From positions 62,001 to 126,000 of the forward strand of contig NC_018012.1 in the NCBI RefSeq assembly GCF_000227745.2: a DNA stretch of 64,000 nucleotides, in the 5' to 3' direction. This document shows positions 2,858 through 16,881 of the stretch, in pieces. The notes beneath the pieces are model-generated. The model did not search any database. It was not told the origin of the DNA and saw only the letters and a list, made by a program, of their open reading frames with translations. Source of the DNA: Thiocystis violascens DSM 198 (GTDB lineage: Bacteria; Pseudomonadota; Gammaproteobacteria; Chromatiales; Chromatiaceae). Both the position numbers and the translations under genes were made by a program. Positions within the stretch are counted from its first letter, which is position 1; each line of letters begins with the position of its first letter.

Positions 2858-4266
2858 CAGAAAAAGGTCAGGCCGACCTGGAAATAGCGTTCGACCTTGG
2901 GCACCAGATCCTTGCTCGCCAGAAAGAGGATGACATGATCCTCGGGCTCGATGAGGGTATCGCCATGGGCGATCAGCACCTGACCGAGGCGCAGGCTGGC
3001 ACCTGGGCTATCGCGGCTGATCCCGCGCACGATGGCGCCGATGCTGGCGCCCTGGGGAAGGTCCAGCTCATCGATCCGCCGACCGATGACCTTGGAGGTG
3101 GTGGGGTCGCCATGGACCACGAATTCCAGCGCCTCCGCCGCCCCGCGGCGCAGACTGTGCACCGCCGCCACGTCGCCGCGGCGCACATGCGCGAGCAGCG
3201 AGCCGATGGAGATCTGGGCCGGCGAGATGGCGATGTCGATGCGATCGGCCTGGAGCAGATTCGCGTAGGCGCGCCGATTGATCAGGGCCAGTACGCGGCG
3301 CGCGCCGAGACTCTTGGCCAGCAGGGACGCCAGGATGTTGTTCTCGTCGTCGTTGGTCAGGGCCAGGAAAACGTCCATGTCGTCGATGTTCTCGGCGGCG
3401 AGCAGGGTCTCGTCGGTGGTATCCCCGTGCAAAACCAGCGTATTCGTCAGGGTGGCGCCGAGTTCCCGGGCGCGCGCCTCATCGGCCTCGATCACCTTGA
3501 CCTGATAGCGCTCCTGCGCGACGCCCGCCAGACGGGAGCCGATGTTGCCGCCGCCCGCGATCATGATCCGTCGCGTCGGCTGGTCGCAGCGGCGCAACTC
3601 GCTCATGACCTGACGGATGTTCTGGGTGGCCGCGAGATAAAAGACCTCGTCGCCCGTCTCGATCAGGGTGTCGCCCTCGGGCGCGAGCGGTTGATCCCGA
3701 CGATAGATGGCGGCGATGCGGGCGTCGATCTTTGGCATGTGCCTGCGCAGGTCGGAGACCGGGTGTCCGACCAGCGGACCGCCCGCCACGGCGCGCGTCG
3801 CGACCAGACTGACCAGGCCGTCGGCGAATTTCAGCACCTGCAGCGCCTCGGGAAACTCGATGAGTTTCAGCAGATAGTCGGTGACGATCTGCTCCGGGCA
3901 GATGCTGAAGTCCACCGCGAAATTCTTGCTATCCAGCAGTTCGGGGTGTTCGCTGTAGTCGGCCGAGCGCAGCCGCGCGATCTTGGTCGGGATCTTGAAG
4001 AGGGTGTCGGCGGTGCGGCAGGCGCAGAGATTGGTCTGATCGCTCTGCGTCACGGCGATCAGCAGGTCGGTATCCTCGGCCCCGGCCTGGCGCAGCACGG
4101 AGGGCAGCGCCGCGTTCCCGACCACGGTTCGCAGATCCAGGAGTTCCTGCAATTGGCGCAGACGCCGGATGTCGGTGTCGATGACGGTGATTTCGTTGGC
4201 TTCGGACACCAGGCTTTCGGCCACGGACGCCCCGACCTGGCCGGCGCCCAGGATGATGATCTTCAC
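2857..4266 (-). CDS. trkA: TrkA, NAD-binding regulator of K+ uptake
   Basis: This is a cytoplasmic regulatory ring subunit of the Trk system. It contains two RCK repeats, each with a Rossmann (TrkA-N) domain and a TrkA-C domain. The first nucleotide-binding loop is GAGQVGASVAE at residues 7-17, ending with an acidic residue in VIDTD. The second is GGGNIGSRLA near residue 238. Length (469 aa) matches the family (about 458). The start is GTG at 4266, overlapping the apbE stop as GTGA. The order apbE-trkA-trkH with 1-4 nt overlaps implies one transcript. Adjacent trkA and trkH are common in Proteobacteria; apbE as neighbour is not. Confidence 0.95.
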   Translation of the reverse strand: MKIIILGAGQVGASVAESLVSEANEITVIDTDIRRLRQLQELLDLRTVVGNAALPSVLRQAGAEDTDLLIAVTQSDQTNLCACRTADTLFKIPTKIARLRSADYSEHPELLDSKNFAVDFSICPEQIVTDYLLKLIEFPEALQVLKFADGLVSLVATRAVAGGPLVGHPVSDLRRHMPKIDARIAAIYRRDQPLAPEGDTLIETGDEVFYLAATQNIRQVMSELRRCDQPTRRIMIAGGGNIGSRLAGVAQERYQVKVIEADEARARELGATLTNTLVLHGDTTDETLLAAENIDDMDVFLALTNDDENNILASLLAKSLGARRVLALINRRAYANLLQADRIDIAISPAQISIGSLLAHVRRGDVAAVHSLRRGAAEALEFVVHGDPTTSKVIGRRIDELDLPQGASIGAIVRGISRDSPGASLRLGQVLIAHGDTLIEPEDHVILFLASKDLVPKVERYFQVGLTFF

Positions 4267-5360
4267 GGTTGATGGCTCCGTGCCAGATCGTCCTCGAAGG
4301 CCGGGCTGCCGAAGCCGCGCGGCACGTCCCCATCGCGAACGATGAAGTAGGCCGCCAGCCCTTGGGATGCCGCGAGCGCCGGTCCCCGCGTCTCTCCGAG
4401 GACCATGAACGCGGTCGCCAGCCCGTCGACGACCATCGCACGGTCACCGATCACCGTGGCCGAACCCAGGTTGCGTTCGATCGGCGCACCGGTACTGGGA
4501 TCGATCTCGTGAGAATAGCGTTTGCCGTCCTTCACGAAGAAGTTGCGATAGTCGCCCGAGGTCGAGATGGCGCGGTCGGAGACGGGGACGATGCGATGGA
4601 CGGTGCGTTGGTCTGGTAGCGGTTCCTCGATCGCAATGGCCCAGGGCTGGTTCTTGGCATTGCGTCCCTTGGCGCGAATGGTGCCAGCCACCGCGATCAT
4701 ATAATGGTCTACGCCAGACGCCTCCAGCCCGGCCGATACCCGGTCGGCGCCGACCCCTTCGCCGAGCGCCGAGAGATCGATGTAGAGATCGCCCCGTGCC
4801 TTGCGAACGGCTGGCGGCGCTACGCGCAGTTCCAGCTTGCGCCAGCCGACGCGCGCTTGGGCGGCCTGGATCTCCGCCTCGGTCGGCAGCGCCTCCGGGC
4901 GTGCCTCGGGACCGAAGCCCCAGAGATTGACCAGCGGCCCGATCGTGATGTCGAACGCGCCATCGGTCAGGGCGGCGATGCGCTGGCCTTCGGCGATCAC
5001 CGCGTGGAGGTTGGGCGAGAGAGGAATCCAATCGGTGCTGGGATTGCGGTTGAGGCGGGATAACTCGGAGGTCGGATCATAGGTCGAGAGTTCGGCGATC
5101 ACCTCATTGAGCGCCGATTCGACCTGGCGCTTCAGCGTCTCGGCGTTCATGCCAGCGGGTGGGCGGGCGACCTTGACCGAGTAATAGGTGCCCATCGTGG
5201 GGCCTTCGATCTCGATCAAAGGCGCCGTGCGCTCGCCGCAGCCGGTGAGCAGAAGGGCGAATACGGTGATTGCAGGCAGAATCCAGGATTCGCATCGGCG
5301 GAGACTTTTCATGACTGTACGGAGAATCTTCATCGCCTGAGTCTGTTTCGCCGTGTTCAC
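4263..5360 (-). CDS. apbE: ApbE, FAD:protein FMN transferase (lipoprotein)
   Basis: This is a periplasmic, membrane-anchored flavin transferase. It uses FAD to attach FMN covalently to a threonine of target proteins such as RnfG and RnfD. A lipobox LLTGC ends at Cys41 of the longest reading, after a hydrophobic stretch. Downstream are the family motifs GPTMGTYYSV, YDPTSELSRLN, the GAFDITIGPLVNLWGFG block, and AISTSGDYRNFF. The GTG at 5360 overlaps the tatA stop (GTGA), but the ATG at 5333 or 5312 would give a more typical type II signal peptide, so the start is uncertain. Its likely clients are encoded at 15170-16881 (rnfG, rnfD). Placement in a potassium-transport operon is unusual. Confidence 0.95.
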   Translation of the reverse strand: MNTAKQTQAMKILRTVMKSLRRCESWILPAITVFALLLTGCGERTAPLIEIEGPTMGTYYSVKVARPPAGMNAETLKRQVESALNEVIAELSTYDPTSELSRLNRNPSTDWIPLSPNLHAVIAEGQRIAALTDGAFDITIGPLVNLWGFGPEARPEALPTEAEIQAAQARVGWRKLELRVAPPAVRKARGDLYIDLSALGEGVGADRVSAGLEASGVDHYMIAVAGTIRAKGRNAKNQPWAIAIEEPLPDQRTVHRIVPVSDRAISTSGDYRNFFVKDGKRYSHEIDPSTGAPIERNLGSATVIGDRAMVVDGLATAFMVLGETRGPALAASQGLAAYFIVRDGDVPRGFGSPAFEDDLARSHQP

Positions 5361-5737: not shown

Positions 5738-5995
5738 ATGAGTTCACCCAGTTCAGCCCCCGGACGTTCGTCGCGGGCACTCGCCATCACGCTGACCCTT
5801 GGAGCGGCAAGCGCGCTTCTGTATTTGCTGCTGTTCCTGTTCGCCGACCGGTTGAACGAGATCGCCACCGCCACGCGCGACGGCGAAAAGCTTTACGCCC
5901 TGATCCCGCTCGCCGTCGCCATGGTCTTCTCCTTCGTACACGGCGCTTTCACCGGGCATTTTTGGGATCTGCTCGGCCTGCGCGCCAAGAAATAA
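5738..5995 (+). CDS. Small two-helix membrane protein
   Basis: An 85-residue protein of unknown function starts at ATG 5738, nine bases after a GGAG ribosome site. It has a short polar N-terminus and two hydrophobic helices. The first is about residues 16-36 (ALAITLTLGAASALLYLLLF) and the second about 54-72, ending in HGAFTGHFWDLLGLRAKK. It lies 15 bp upstream of the TauE/SafE-UspA fusion on the same strand, so the two are probably co-transcribed. It may be an accessory subunit of that permease; this is inferred from position only. Confidence 0.7.
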   Translation: MSSPSSAPGRSSRALAITLTLGAASALLYLLLFLFADRLNEIATATRDGEKLYALIPLAVAMVFSFVHGAFTGHFWDLLGLRAKK

Positions 5996-6010: not shown

Positions 6011-7951
6011 GTGGAAAATATCCAGTTCATCGACCTCAACCTGGTTTCGGTCCTGATCCTGTTTGTGGTCGGGTTCGTCGGCGGCATGGTCAGCGGTTTT
6101 ATCGGCTCCGGTGGCGCCTTCGTACTGACCCCGGCGATGATGAGCATGGGCGTGCCGGGCGTGGTCGCCGTGGCCAGCAACATGGCCCACAAGTTTCCCA
6201 AAGCCCTGGTCGGCGCCCATAAGCGTAACAAATACGGCCAGGTCGACATCAAGCTCGGGCTTGTCATGGGGCTCTTCGCCGAATTCGGCGTGCTGTTCGG
6301 CAAGCACATCATGGTCGGGATCAAGGAGAGCTTCGGCGCCGCCGGGACTAACCTCTATGTCTCGTTCGTCTTCGTGGTGGTGCTCGCGATCGTCGGCGGC
6401 ATGGTCCTGCGCGATGCGATACGGGAACGGCGCGGCGAGCGCATCGGCAGTCAGGCGGAGGGACCGAGCAAGCTGGTCCAGCGGGTGCGTCGGATCGTCA
6501 TCCCCGGCACCATGGTGCATCTGAAAAGCGTCGACGCGCGGGTGTCTTTTCTCGTCATCGCCCCGCTCGGCTTCGCCACCGGACTCCTGGCGGCGACCAT
6601 CGCGGTCGGCGGCTTCATCGGCGTGCCGGCCATGATGTACATCCTCGGGCTGCCGGCCATCATGGCGAGCGCGACCGAACTGGTCGTGGCCTTCGTGATG
6701 GGTCTGGGCGGGAGCCTCTTTTACGCGCTGGAAGGCTACGTGGACATCCGGCTCTCGATGATCATCCTGGCCGGCTCGCTGTTCGGCATCCAGATCGGGG
6801 CCATCGGCACCACCTATGTCAAGGACCATGTCGTCAAGTTCGTGATGGCCGCGATCATGCTGCTGGTGCTGGTCAGCCGCTTTTTCTACATCCCCGGCTA
6901 TCTCTCCGAATTGGGATCGATCCCCGCCCTCGATCCCGCGACCATCGGCTGGCTCGACGGCATCGGCGAGGCGGCATTGGTCTTCGCGCTGCTGTTCGGG
7001 GGCGTCATGATCCTCCAGGCGCTTTATCAGGGGATGCGTGAGCATCGTGCCGCCACCCTTCTGGCGCCAGCGCCGCAGGTTGCCCCGGTGGCCGCCGTGG
7101 CCGGCGGACCGCAACTCTCGCCGCTCGGGCGCTTCGAGCGCTTCCTGGTCGCCAGCGACGGCTCCGATTTCAGCGCCGCCGCGGTACGCGAGGCAATCGG
7201 TCTGGCCCGCCGGTGCGGTGCCGAGCTGCATCTGATGTCGCTGATCGCGACCGGTGTCGAGTACGAAGCGATGGGTACCTCCATCCTCAAGCAGGAAATG
7301 GCAACCGCTCAGGCACACCTGGACGAGATTCGGGGACAGGCGGTGGCGGCCGGGGTGCGCTGCGAGACTCACCTGATCCAGGGCAGCAACGTGCACCAGG
7401 AGATCTGCGATCTGGCCGAGCAGTTGAACGTCGACCTGATCGTCATGGGCCGGCGCGGACGGCGCGGCCTGGCGCGCATGATGCTCGGACATGCCACGGC
7501 GCAGGTCATCGGGTTGGCCCATTGCAGTGTTCTGGTGGTGCCGCGCGCGGCGCATATCGACGCACGTCGTCTCCTGCTCGCCACCGACGGCTCGCGGTTC
7601 GCGGAGGCGGCGGCGATCACCGCCGGCAGTCTCGCCCGTGCCTGTCGCGCGCCGATGACCGTGGTCTCGGTCACGACCGAGAGCCATGGCCCGGAGCGGC
7701 GCGCGCTCGCCGAGCAGGTCGTCGAGCGTGTCCTGGCCCATCTGCGCGGCGAGGGCATTGCCGCCGACGGGCAAGTGCTGCAAGGGGAGCCGTCGGAGCG
7801 CGTGGTCGAATTGGCGCGCGAGCGGGAGGTCGATCTCATCGTCACCGGCAGCCATGGCCGCACGGGGTTGGAACGCGCACTGCTCGGCAGTACCTCCGAG
7901 CGCATCCTGAACGCGACTCCCTGCGCGGTGCTGGTCACCAAGGCCGGTTGA
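6011..7951 (+). CDS. TauE/SafE (TSUP) permease fused to two UspA domains
   Basis: A 646-residue fusion. Residues 1-345 form a TSUP-family permease with about eight membrane segments (for example GFVGGMVSGFIGSGGAFVLT at 21-40). This family exports or imports sulfite, sulfonates or other organosulfur anions; the substrate here is not known. Residues 375-512 and 518-646 are tandem universal-stress-protein domains. The second keeps the ATP-loop pattern G-2x-G-9x-G-S (G613, G616, G626-S627). The first has His instead of Ser/Thr after the last glycine (G480, G483, G493-H494). The start is GTG at 6011 behind GGGGGA. The UspA domains would be cytoplasmic and could gate the permease according to nucleotide or stress state (inference). 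Confidence 0.9.
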   Translation: MENIQFIDLNLVSVLILFVVGFVGGMVSGFIGSGGAFVLTPAMMSMGVPGVVAVASNMAHKFPKALVGAHKRNKYGQVDIKLGLVMGLFAEFGVLFGKHIMVGIKESFGAAGTNLYVSFVFVVVLAIVGGMVLRDAIRERRGERIGSQAEGPSKLVQRVRRIVIPGTMVHLKSVDARVSFLVIAPLGFATGLLAATIAVGGFIGVPAMMYILGLPAIMASATELVVAFVMGLGGSLFYALEGYVDIRLSMIILAGSLFGIQIGAIGTTYVKDHVVKFVMAAIMLLVLVSRFFYIPGYLSELGSIPALDPATIGWLDGIGEAALVFALLFGGVMILQALYQGMREHRAATLLAPAPQVAPVAAVAGGPQLSPLGRFERFLVASDGSDFSAAAVREAIGLARRCGAELHLMSLIATGVEYEAMGTSILKQEMATAQAHLDEIRGQAVAAGVRCETHLIQGSNVHQEICDLAEQLNVDLIVMGRRGRRGLARMMLGHATAQVIGLAHCSVLVVPRAAHIDARRLLLATDGSRFAEAAAITAGSLARACRAPMTVVSVTTESHGPERRALAEQVVERVLAHLRGEGIAADGQVLQGEPSERVVELAREREVDLIVTGSHGRTGLERALLGSTSERILNATPCAVLVTKAG

Positions 7952-14184: not shown

Positions 14185-14487
14185 TCAATGTGCAGAAGTC
14201 TTGGCGGGCGGAGCCGCCGCATCCTCGCCCTTGGCACGCCCCTTTAGGGTCTTGGGGTCCGCGATGAGCGGGCGGTAAATCTCGACGCGATCACCATCCG
14301 CCAGCTTGGTTTCCAGGGCGGAGACCTTGCCGAAGACTCCGACCTTCTGCTGGTCCAGGTCGATCTCGGGACATTGCGCGAGGAGGCCCGAACGCTCGAC
14401 CGCTTCGCGCAGGGTGGCGCCCTCGGGAACCTCGATGTTCAACCAGATCTGGCGCTTGGCCAGGGCATAGACAATGCTGACCTTCAT
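14185..14487 (-). CDS. rnfH: RnfH-family protein (UPF0125)
   Basis: A small (100 aa) ubiquitin-fold protein, last gene of the rnf cluster. The RnfH/UPF0125 pattern is clear: MKVSIVYALAKRQIWLNIEV, then a region with LREAVERSGLL, VGVFGKVSALETKL and DGDRVEIYRPLIADPKTL. The C-terminal 20 residues are Ala/Lys-rich and variable. It lies 11 bp after rnfE and is probably cotranscribed. Its precise role in Rnf assembly is not established in the family. Confidence 0.9.
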   Translation of the reverse strand: MKVSIVYALAKRQIWLNIEVPEGATLREAVERSGLLAQCPEIDLDQQKVGVFGKVSALETKLADGDRVEIYRPLIADPKTLKGRAKGEDAAAPPAKTSAH

Positions 14488-14498
14488 TCGGAATCTCC

Positions 14499-15170
14499 TC
14501 AGACGCTATGGGCGCCGGCCATCTGGATGCCCTTGCCGGCGCGGATGTCGAGCAGGCGCTTGCCCACCACGACTAGCCCGGTGACCAGGAATCCACCCGG
14601 AGGCAGGATCATCATCAGCACGCCCATGTCGGCGGGCATGATGCGCAGCTCCATGAATTTGAAGGCTGGACCCAGCAGCAACGAGGCATCGGCAAACAGG
14701 GTGCCCGACCCCAGGATTTCGCGCCCCGCGCCGATCAGGGTCAGCGCGAGCGTGAACCCCAGCCCCATGAAGATGCCGTCCATCAGCGATGGCAGGATCG
14801 GCTCCTTCGAGGCGAAGGATTCGAGCCGCGCCAGCGGCAGACAGTTGGAGACGATCAGCGGGATGAAGAGTCCCAGCACCTTGTAGAGTTCGTGCATCCA
14901 GGCATTCATGGTCAGATCCACGAAGGTGACGTTGGCCGCCACGATCAGGATGTAGACCGGAATGCGCACCTCGCGGGTGATGTAGTTGCGGAAGGCGGCG
15001 ACCATGAAGTTGGAGGCGGCCATCACCACGGCGGTGGCCAACCCCATCCCCAGCCCGTTGGTGGCGCTGGTGGTCATGGCCATGGTCGGGCACATGCCGA
15101 GCAGCATGGCGAGCACGCCGTTGTTGTCCCACAGACCGTCGCGGACGATCCGGCCATAGTTGGCTGCCAT
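14499..15170 (-). CDS. rnfE: RnfE membrane subunit of Rnf/Rsx complex
   Basis: Integral membrane subunit of the Rnf ferredoxin:NAD+ oxidoreductase (also called Rsx). 223 residues with about six helices. Family motifs include DGLWDNNGVLAMLLGMCP, TSATNGLGMGLAT, PVYILIVAANVTFVDL and IPLIVSNCLPLARLE; the conserved cysteines in GMCP and SNC are iron-sulfur ligands in RnfA/E structures (established knowledge). ATG at 15170 overlaps the rnfG stop as TGATG. The longer frame to 15308 is an artefact of overlap with rnfG. Confidence 0.95.
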   Translation of the reverse strand: MAANYGRIVRDGLWDNNGVLAMLLGMCPTMAMTTSATNGLGMGLATAVVMAASNFMVAAFRNYITREVRIPVYILIVAANVTFVDLTMNAWMHELYKVLGLFIPLIVSNCLPLARLESFASKEPILPSLMDGIFMGLGFTLALTLIGAGREILGSGTLFADASLLLGPAFKFMELRIMPADMGVLMMILPPGGFLVTGLVVVGKRLLDIRAGKGIQMAGAHSV

Positions 15171-15781
15171 CAGTTCATCTCCAGCAGTTGCGCCCGGTGG
15201 GCGTCGAAGAATTCGAGACCGTGACGAATCGCGGTGACGGTGCCACGGGGAGTGATGGTGGCCCCGGTGAACTGGTCGAACTGGCCGCCGTCTTTCTTCA
15301 CCTTCCATTTCTCGGCGGGCGGATTGCCCAGCGAGAGTCCGGCGAACTGGAGAATCCAGTCGCCCTTCTTGATCTCGATCTTGTCGCCCAGTCCAGGGGT
15401 CTCCTTGTGGCTCAGTGCGCGCACCCCTAGAACCCGGCCCTCGGCGTCCACACCGAGCATGAACTTCATGTGGCCGGCGTAGCCCGAGCCGTGGATTTCA
15501 TAGGCGACACCGGTCACCTGGCCGGCCTTGCGGGCACGGTAGACGGTGATGTCGTTGCCCTCGGCGTCCCGCATGGCCAAGTTGTCGATGACCGGGTTGT
15601 TGTCGTGGAGGCTCGCCGGGATCACCTGCCCGAGCGAGTTCTGCCGGTCTTCCATCGCGCGGGCGGCGATGGCGTCGCGGGTTGCCAGCTCGGTGAGCCC
15701 GAGGAAGATGCCAAAACCAAGACAGAAGACGCCGAGAATGGCCGCGTGGGTCAAGGTGCCCTGTTTCATGAGCGGATTCAT
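15170..15781 (-). CDS. rnfG: RnfG, covalent-FMN subunit
   Basis: A 203-residue membrane-anchored periplasmic subunit carrying covalently bound FMN. One N-terminal helix (about 11-30) is followed by the FMN-binding domain. The flavinylation motif FTGATIT is present, with the acceptor expected at Thr175. SHKETPGLGDKIE is the other conserved block. ApbE encoded at 4263-5360 would attach the FMN. Its start and stop overlap rnfD and rnfE by 4 and 1 nt. Confidence 0.95.
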   Translation of the reverse strand: MNPLMKQGTLTHAAILGVFCLGFGIFLGLTELATRDAIAARAMEDRQNSLGQVIPASLHDNNPVIDNLAMRDAEGNDITVYRARKAGQVTGVAYEIHGSGYAGHMKFMLGVDAEGRVLGVRALSHKETPGLGDKIEIKKGDWILQFAGLSLGNPPAEKWKVKKDGGQFDQFTGATITPRGTVTAIRHGLEFFDAHRAQLLEMN

Positions 15782-16881
15782 GCTTTCCCCTTCAGCGGCA
15801 AGGGCTCGCCTTTGCGCGTGCGGCCAAAGAGGCGCGGACGGGTGTATTGGTCGATGATCGGGGTGAGCGAGTTCATCAGCAGCACGGCGAAGGCCATCCC
15901 CTCCGGATAACCGGCGAAGGTGCGGATGACCCAGGTCAGGAGTCCGACACCGATGCCGAAGATCAACTGCCCCTTCTCGGAGACCGGCGAGGTCACATAG
16001 TCGGTGGCGATGAAGAAGGCACCGAGGAAGGTCGCCCCGGAGATGACATGGAAAAGTCCAGGGGCGAAGCGGCCCGGATCCAGCAGGTTGAACAGGGTGC
16101 CCATCAGGAACAGTGTCCCCAGCACCGTGACCGGAATATGCCAGGTGATGATGCGCCGACGCATCAGGAACAAGCCCCCGATGAGGATCAGGATCGCCGA
16201 GGTCTCGCCCAGACTGCCCGGTTTGTAGCCGGTCGCCAGATCCATGAGATCCGGGGTATAGGTCAGATTCGTGCCGCGGCCGTACTCGACGAGCGACTGG
16301 AAGACCGGAATCCCCCGTGACAGTTCAGTCTTGACATAGCCAAGCGCGGTGGCGGCGGTCACGCCGTCCGGCACCTGTCCGCCAAAGGTGATGGCGATGG
16401 AATCGGCCAGACCGGGCGCGCTGGCCGAGAACAGCGGATGGGGCGCGATCCAGGCGGTCATGACGACCGGAAAAGACACCAGCAGCGCGACGCGCGCGAC
16501 CATCGCGGGGTTGAACAGGTTCTGACCCAATCCGCCGAACGCCTGCTTGGCCAGCGGGATGGCGAAGACGGCGCCGAGCACGCCGATCCACCAGGGCGCC
16601 CAGGGCGGCAGGGTCATGGCCAGCAGCCAGCCGGTGAGAATAGCCGAGCCGTCCGTCAGGGTGCGCGTCACCGGCCGCCCGGCGAGCGCCAGACAGATCG
16701 CCTCGGTCACCACGCAGGCGCCGATGGTGACGCCGAACAGCAGGATCGACGGCCAGCCGAACAGATAAAGATTGAAGAGCGTGGCGGGCGACAGGGCCAG
16801 AATCACCGTGAACATGGTCTGCTGGACCGTGTTCGTGCTATGGGCGAATGGCCCGCTTTTCGTGGTCTCCCCGCCAATCAT
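15778..16881 (-). CDS. rnfD: RnfD, membrane flavin subunit
   Basis: A 367-residue integral membrane subunit of the Rnf complex, related to NqrB. It has about nine to ten helices. Conserved blocks are TLTDGSAILTGWLLAMTLPP, GGLGQNLFNPAMVARV and, near the C-terminus, FIATDYVTSP. The motif DGVTAATAL at 172-180 corresponds to the site of the covalent FMN threonine in RnfD (Thr178 expected). It overlaps rnfC and rnfG by 4 nt each, so the three are translationally coupled. Confidence 0.95.
   Translation of the reverse strand: MIGGETTKSGPFAHSTNTVQQTMFTVILALSPATLFNLYLFGWPSILLFGVTIGACVVTEAICLALAGRPVTRTLTDGSAILTGWLLAMTLPPWAPWWIGVLGAVFAIPLAKQAFGGLGQNLFNPAMVARVALLVSFPVVMTAWIAPHPLFSASAPGLADSIAITFGGQVPDGVTAATALGYVKTELSRGIPVFQSLVEYGRGTNLTYTPDLMDLATGYKPGSLGETSAILILIGGLFLMRRRIITWHIPVTVLGTLFLMGTLFNLLDPGRFAPGLFHVISGATFLGAFFIATDYVTSPVSEKGQLIFGIGVGLLTWVIRTFAGYPEGMAFAVLLMNSLTPIIDQYTRPRLFGRTRKGEPLPLKGKA

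Follow-up and report, generated by a model that had tools for sequence, protein, structure and literature searches.

We found that the TSUP permease encoded in Thiocystis violascens DSM 198 as one chain with two universal stress protein (Usp) domains belongs to a subfamily in which the permease gene lies, in every locus examined, next to a gene for a small two-helix protein. The constancy of this partner, which exceeds that of the Usp part, is the firmest new result of the analysis. From sequences, structural models and analogy, we consider it fairly probable that the pair forms a two-subunit transporter for sulfur oxyanions, whose regulator is cytoplasmic and responds to nucleotides.

Results

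Locus and gene layout

The window, which is the whole 64,000-nucleotide stretch of DNA analysed, contains the pair at the positions listed in Table 1, with a gap of 15 bp between the end of the small ORF and the start of the permease. The fusion gene lies ~500 kb from dsrA in its own genome; the pair is therefore outside any sulfur operon. By eye, an ApbE-like flavin transferase gene was also seen at 4263-5360 (-) and an apparent Rnf-type electron-transfer cluster at 14185-16881 (-), ~9 kb from the ApbE-like gene.

Table 1 Features of the permease-Usp locus in the window
Feature	Position	Strand	Remarks
TSUP permease-Usp-Usp fusion ORF	6011..7951	+	646 aa, GTG start, zero internal stops
TauE/SafE (PF01925) domain, residues 17-288	6059..6874	+	Pfam match; AlphaFold2 model
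Extra C-terminal transmembrane helix (predicted), residues about 309-341	6935..7033	+	AlphaFold2 model, charge counts
Usp domain 1, residues 375-511	7133..7543	+	degenerate ATP loop 7448-7492 (GRRG-x9-GH)
Usp domain 2, residues 513-646	7547..7948	+	intact ATP loop 7847-7891 (GSHG-x9-GS)
Small two-helix membrane protein (predicted), 85 aa	5738..5995	+	likely start ATG at 5738

Domains, fold and topology of the fusion protein

The permease part matches the TauE profile PF01925 with an E-value of 8.6e-36 and 124 bits, against a curated cut-off of 32.6, and covers profile positions 1-235 of 237, which places it in the TSUP family. The Usp profile PF00582 matches the tail twice (E 2e-53, 181 bits), with its best stretch in domain 1 and the second match at about residues 513-644, and the fold likewise identifies two Usp domains. 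The initial annotation had proposed that the permease runs unbroken into two Usp domains, and the single open frame with one TauE and two Usp matches bears this out.

The AlphaFold2 model of the fusion, built with 42 family sequences (mean pLDDT 82), consists of a two-repeat permease, the extra helix, a disordered linker at residues 352-367 and the tandem Usp tail. The extra helix is also present in the unfused homologues and, in the model, would bring the chain back to the cytoplasm. A profile search of the PDB with the fusion returned Usp relatives alone, with no match to the permease part, and the TSUP permease has no solved relative by sequence in the PDB searched. In the fold searches, essentially all of the matches listed were Usp or Usp-like chains; tandem Usp structures reached Z-scores of up to 29.8 against the tail, and TTHA0350 (3ab8) aligned with a Z-score of 29.6 and an rmsd of 2.2 over 247 residues at 32% identity.

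The topology, a prediction of which the initial annotation had proposed as a check, was read from family-wide averages of charge counts. Net positive charge is found in the loops that follow helices 2, 4 and 7; the segment behind the last helix contains many K/R residues but equally many acidic ones, and the N-terminus and the loops before helix 7 and the last helix are neutral or acidic. By the positive-inside pattern, and if both short helices in the model cross the membrane, the N-terminus would lie outside and the Usp part in the cytoplasm. The permeases of relatives of Beggiatoa and Thiomargarita (L050, L051, L055, L056 and L057) carry ~30-110 extra residues at the N-terminus, fewer in L046 and L052; by eye, this extension is signal-peptide-like and then continues as a small beta-rich segment, and it is missing from the window protein. 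An outside N-terminus agrees with the signal-peptide-like character of the extension.

Spread of the fusion

Homologues were collected from 38 named loci; in a sample of 369 genomes of the class, 15 have one. They fall into two size groups: the longer proteins (~635-675 aa) contain two Usp domains, whereas the shorter ones (~354-369 aa) end after the extra helix. Among the 49 members compared, the window protein included, 31 are fused and 18 unfused. The search for the same fusion in Chromatiaceae and beyond, proposed with the initial annotation, thus gave 31 uninterrupted frames from several lineages: the other 30 loci belong to Chromatiaceae, Magnetococcales, a Solemya symbiont, Beggiatoa relatives and Thioalkalivibrio. 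Because the fusion recurs in many other genomes, with identities of 46-75%, an origin by chance, frameshift or assembly error is excluded.

In the permease tree, the family stands apart from other TSUP proteins and requires seven changes between the fused and unfused states, although some outgroup branches are very long and the fine placement is unsure. The Usp tree is poorly resolved, and one fusion followed by later splits fits it as do several fusions. No Usp fusion was found in the remaining TSUP genes of 27 genomes, judged by the length of their open frames with the four long ones checked; the long ones (L100-L103) contain no Usp domain. Two of these, L100 1666-3627 (-) and L101 396-2249 (+), are second TSUP genes of two related genomes and have ~300 residues before the permease domain.

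The small two-helix partner

The small ORF adjoins the permease in 48 of 48 loci, whether the permease is fused or unfused and with Ammonifex (Bacillota) included. It usually lies a few to ~50 bp upstream of the permease; wider gaps are found in Beggiatoa relatives, L046 and L069, and in L035 a Usp gene sits between the two. When strong matches (E below 1e-20) were counted in the 369-genome class sample, the small-protein profile and the permease occurred in the identical 15 genomes, with neither found alone (Fisher p about 5e-27, a value that ignores shared descent). A reverse search across the phylum, started from the small protein alone, found the permease adjoining in 29 of 29 further loci. 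Taken together, the 48 loci, the 29 of 29 and the 15 of 15 genomes turn the third component that the initial annotation had suspected upstream into a genuine constant partner. In contrast to this subfamily, the sister TSUP loci L096-L099 showed no small partner within the DNA examined there.

The C-terminal end of the protein carries the motif FSxVHGxFTxxFWDxLGxxAK. It falls into no family of Pfam or NCBIfam, and when all 43 small proteins were scanned with Pfam, the matches were scattered and at chance level. AlphaFold2 predicts a helical hairpin (pLDDT 88.5), for which a fold search against the PDB returned nothing significant (best E 1.8). Since the linkage to the permease is invariant, we strongly infer from the sequences that the small protein serves the permease as an obligate membrane subunit or as a factor for its assembly or gating.

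Usp domains and their ATP loops

In the window protein, the loop of domain 2, GSHGRTGLERALLGS (residues 613-627), is canonical, and the pattern G-x2-G-x9-G-[S/T] is kept there in all 31 fusions, with S at the last position (N in one). The loop of domain 1, GRRGRRGLARMMLGH (residues 480-494), reads G-x2-G-x9-G-H and departs from this pattern. In Chromatiaceae and Magnetococcales, the domain 1 loop ends in GH or GQ; in the Solemya/Thioalkalivibrio group, the second Gly is replaced by Asp or Glu; and in most Beggiatoa relatives, the loop is canonical. The initial annotation was thus right that domain 2 is intact and that His replaces Ser in domain 1, but the His is specific to Chromatiaceae and Magnetococcales and does not define the family. 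As judged from the aligned loops, domain 1 has lost its loop in several separate ways, of which His-for-Ser is one lineage-specific form. The asymmetry supports a putative nucleotide-binding half and a second half that would be mainly structural.

Approximately one third of the members lack the Usp fusion. In L034 and L036, a tandem-Usp gene overlaps the stop of the unfused permease, and in L035 the gene order is small protein, Usp-Usp, permease. Directly 3' of the unfused permease of L041, a Thiobacillus MAG, lies a shortened Usp frame of ~75 codons (7056-7300) that has both domain ends and no middle, and a SulP gene follows. For most unfused members, the flanks examined contain no Usp gene. 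Given the size of the unfused fraction and the lack of a flanking Usp gene in most of it, the Usp part is dispensable for basic function.

Hosts and genomic context

As far as seen among the genomes checked, the permease subfamily is confined to dissimilatory sulfur bacteria. Of 18 permease-bearing genomes checked, 17 have dsrA, compared with 17 of 60 genomes without the permease; aprA and soxB are each present in 16 of the 18, and each of the 18 carries one or more of these three genes. For the 15 permease genomes of the class sample, Fisher tests, which ignore shared descent, gave 5e-6 for dsrA and 1e-5 for aprA. The permease is not essential for sulfur oxidation, because many dsrA-positive genomes are without it.

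A gene for a SulP sulfate permease lies downstream of the pair in L039, L041, L054 and L071. In nine loci, among them L032, L033, L035, L040, L044, L047, L048 and L058, genes for related LysR-type regulators are divergent from the small-permease pair, ~0.4-2.4 kb upstream, which makes this LysR protein a candidate regulator of the pair; none was seen beside the pair in the window. TSUP members also carry organosulfonates, and the initial annotation had named sulfite or an organosulfur anion as the exported substrate. An inorganic sulfur oxyanion (sulfite or sulfate) would be favoured over organosulfonates as the substrate, because the hosts are sulfur oxidisers with rDsr/Apr/Sox and because of the four neighbouring SulP genes.

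Discussion

Proposed function

In the model that we propose, the permease would be the inner-membrane route for a small sulfur oxyanion, and the hairpin protein would work together with it as a subunit or an assembly or gating factor. Export appears most likely, with sulfite or sulfate from the cytoplasmic reverse-Dsr/Apr route leaving the cell. The tandem Usp tail would form an asymmetric regulatory pseudo-dimer in the cytoplasm, in which domain 2 may bind an adenine nucleotide while domain 1 would be mainly structural in the lineage of the window protein. Nucleotide occupancy might then tune the transport rate to the energy state, a step suggested by the conservation of the motif and by the existence of other transporters with Usp-type regulators.

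The main rival to export is import. In this alternative, which we regard as rather unlikely, the pair takes up sulfate (or thiosulfate) and the Usp tail throttles uptake when energy is short, in the manner of TeaD, whose gene deletion raises ectoine uptake (PMC2964678). Marietou et al. (PMC5840216) describe a highly conserved TSUP clade B in sulfate reducers, for which import has been suggested; its hosts include Ammonifex degensii, which is without SulP, DASS and CysP carriers. The present family has a member (L053) in Ammonifex thiophilus, the tie to clade B being the shared genus, and a neighbouring SulP family gene is itself of an uptake-type carrier. However, nearly all members are found in sulfur oxidisers, which make sulfate rather than consume it, and A. 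thiophilus has several other TSUP proteins.

The pair could also be a detoxification valve that exports sulfite, with a Usp tail that answers stress and not a nucleotide. Sulfite is exported by TauE in Cupriavidus necator, according to a citation in PMC5840216; a TauE/SafE gene is found among the sulfur genes of Beggiatoa leptomitoformis (PMC11507549), and the ATP loop of domain 1 is spoiled in many lineages. We nevertheless think this improbable, since the ATP loop of domain 2 is complete in every fusion: selection would not otherwise hold this loop, so that an irrelevant nucleotide is unlikely.

The same conserved loop argues against a third alternative, in which the Usp tail does no more than dimerise or anchor the permease and the small protein acts as an insertion chaperone, with no control of flux. 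The unfused third of the family and the shortened Usp remnant of Thiobacillus L041 speak for this reading, but the separate Usp genes that accompany the permease in L034-L036 would be needless for a pure dimeriser, and we give this reading a small chance. Finally, that the fusion is a chance read-through of two really separate proteins is extremely improbable, because split homologues are all that speaks for it and the same uninterrupted frame recurs in all the fused sequences.

Novelty and significance

We found no description of a TSUP or TauE fusion with Usp in the literature, and an earlier mention in the TSUP survey of Shlykov et al. 2012 is possible. The permease and the sensor belong to known families, while their combination, above all with the invariant small partner, is not described in the literature found. 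Tentatively, and at somewhat less than even confidence, the members might constitute an undescribed two-subunit sulfur-oxyanion family made of a TSUP permease, an obligate subunit with two transmembrane helices and a built-in asymmetric Usp energy sensor. If true, the family would be a candidate for the poorly assigned sulfite/sulfate exit route in cytoplasmic sulfur oxidisers.

It is poorly established how sulfite and sulfate leave these organisms, and few substrates have been assigned within the TSUP class. The gene pair offers a concrete target for deletion and assay, and the small protein suggests that TSUP carriers may sometimes work with a partner. In addition, because the two Usp loops have decayed unevenly, nucleotide control is accessible to a direct mutational test.

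Comparison with known systems

The permease core is shared with the TSUP/TauE-SafE family (PF01925; TC 2.A.102), within which the present proteins form a distinct subfamily set apart by the extra C-terminal helix, the constant small partner and the optional Usp tail. Clade B TSUP proteins (Marietou et al. 2018, PMC5840216), compared here by their description, are likewise conserved, tied to dissimilatory sulfur metabolism and represented in Ammonifex, whereas that paper makes no mention of Usp and, in the parts read, of no small partner either. The same text gives CysZ of C. glutamicum, a TSUP member, as carrying sulfate inward.

For the regulatory part, TeaD of Halomonas elongata (3hgm), with which domain 2 aligns at a Z-score of 21.5, is a Usp protein encoded with the transporter TeaABC that modulates its activity; in contrast to the Usp tail, it is a separate single-domain protein and its transporter is a TRAP system. 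The Usp domain of KdpD binds c-di-AMP (PMC8214093), and its structure 7ji4 is among the fold matches of the tail. TTHA0350 of Thermus thermophilus (3ab7/3ab8), the closest solved fold for the tail, is an ATP-bound tandem Usp protein, but it is soluble and has no permease fused. The cation-chloride cotransporters (3g40, 6vwa, KCC/NKCC) are, like the proposed carrier, secondary transporters whose cytoplasmic tail is a tandem of Usp-like domains (Z about 14-17 against the tail of the window protein), while they differ in the fold family of the permease and in their cation/chloride substrate.
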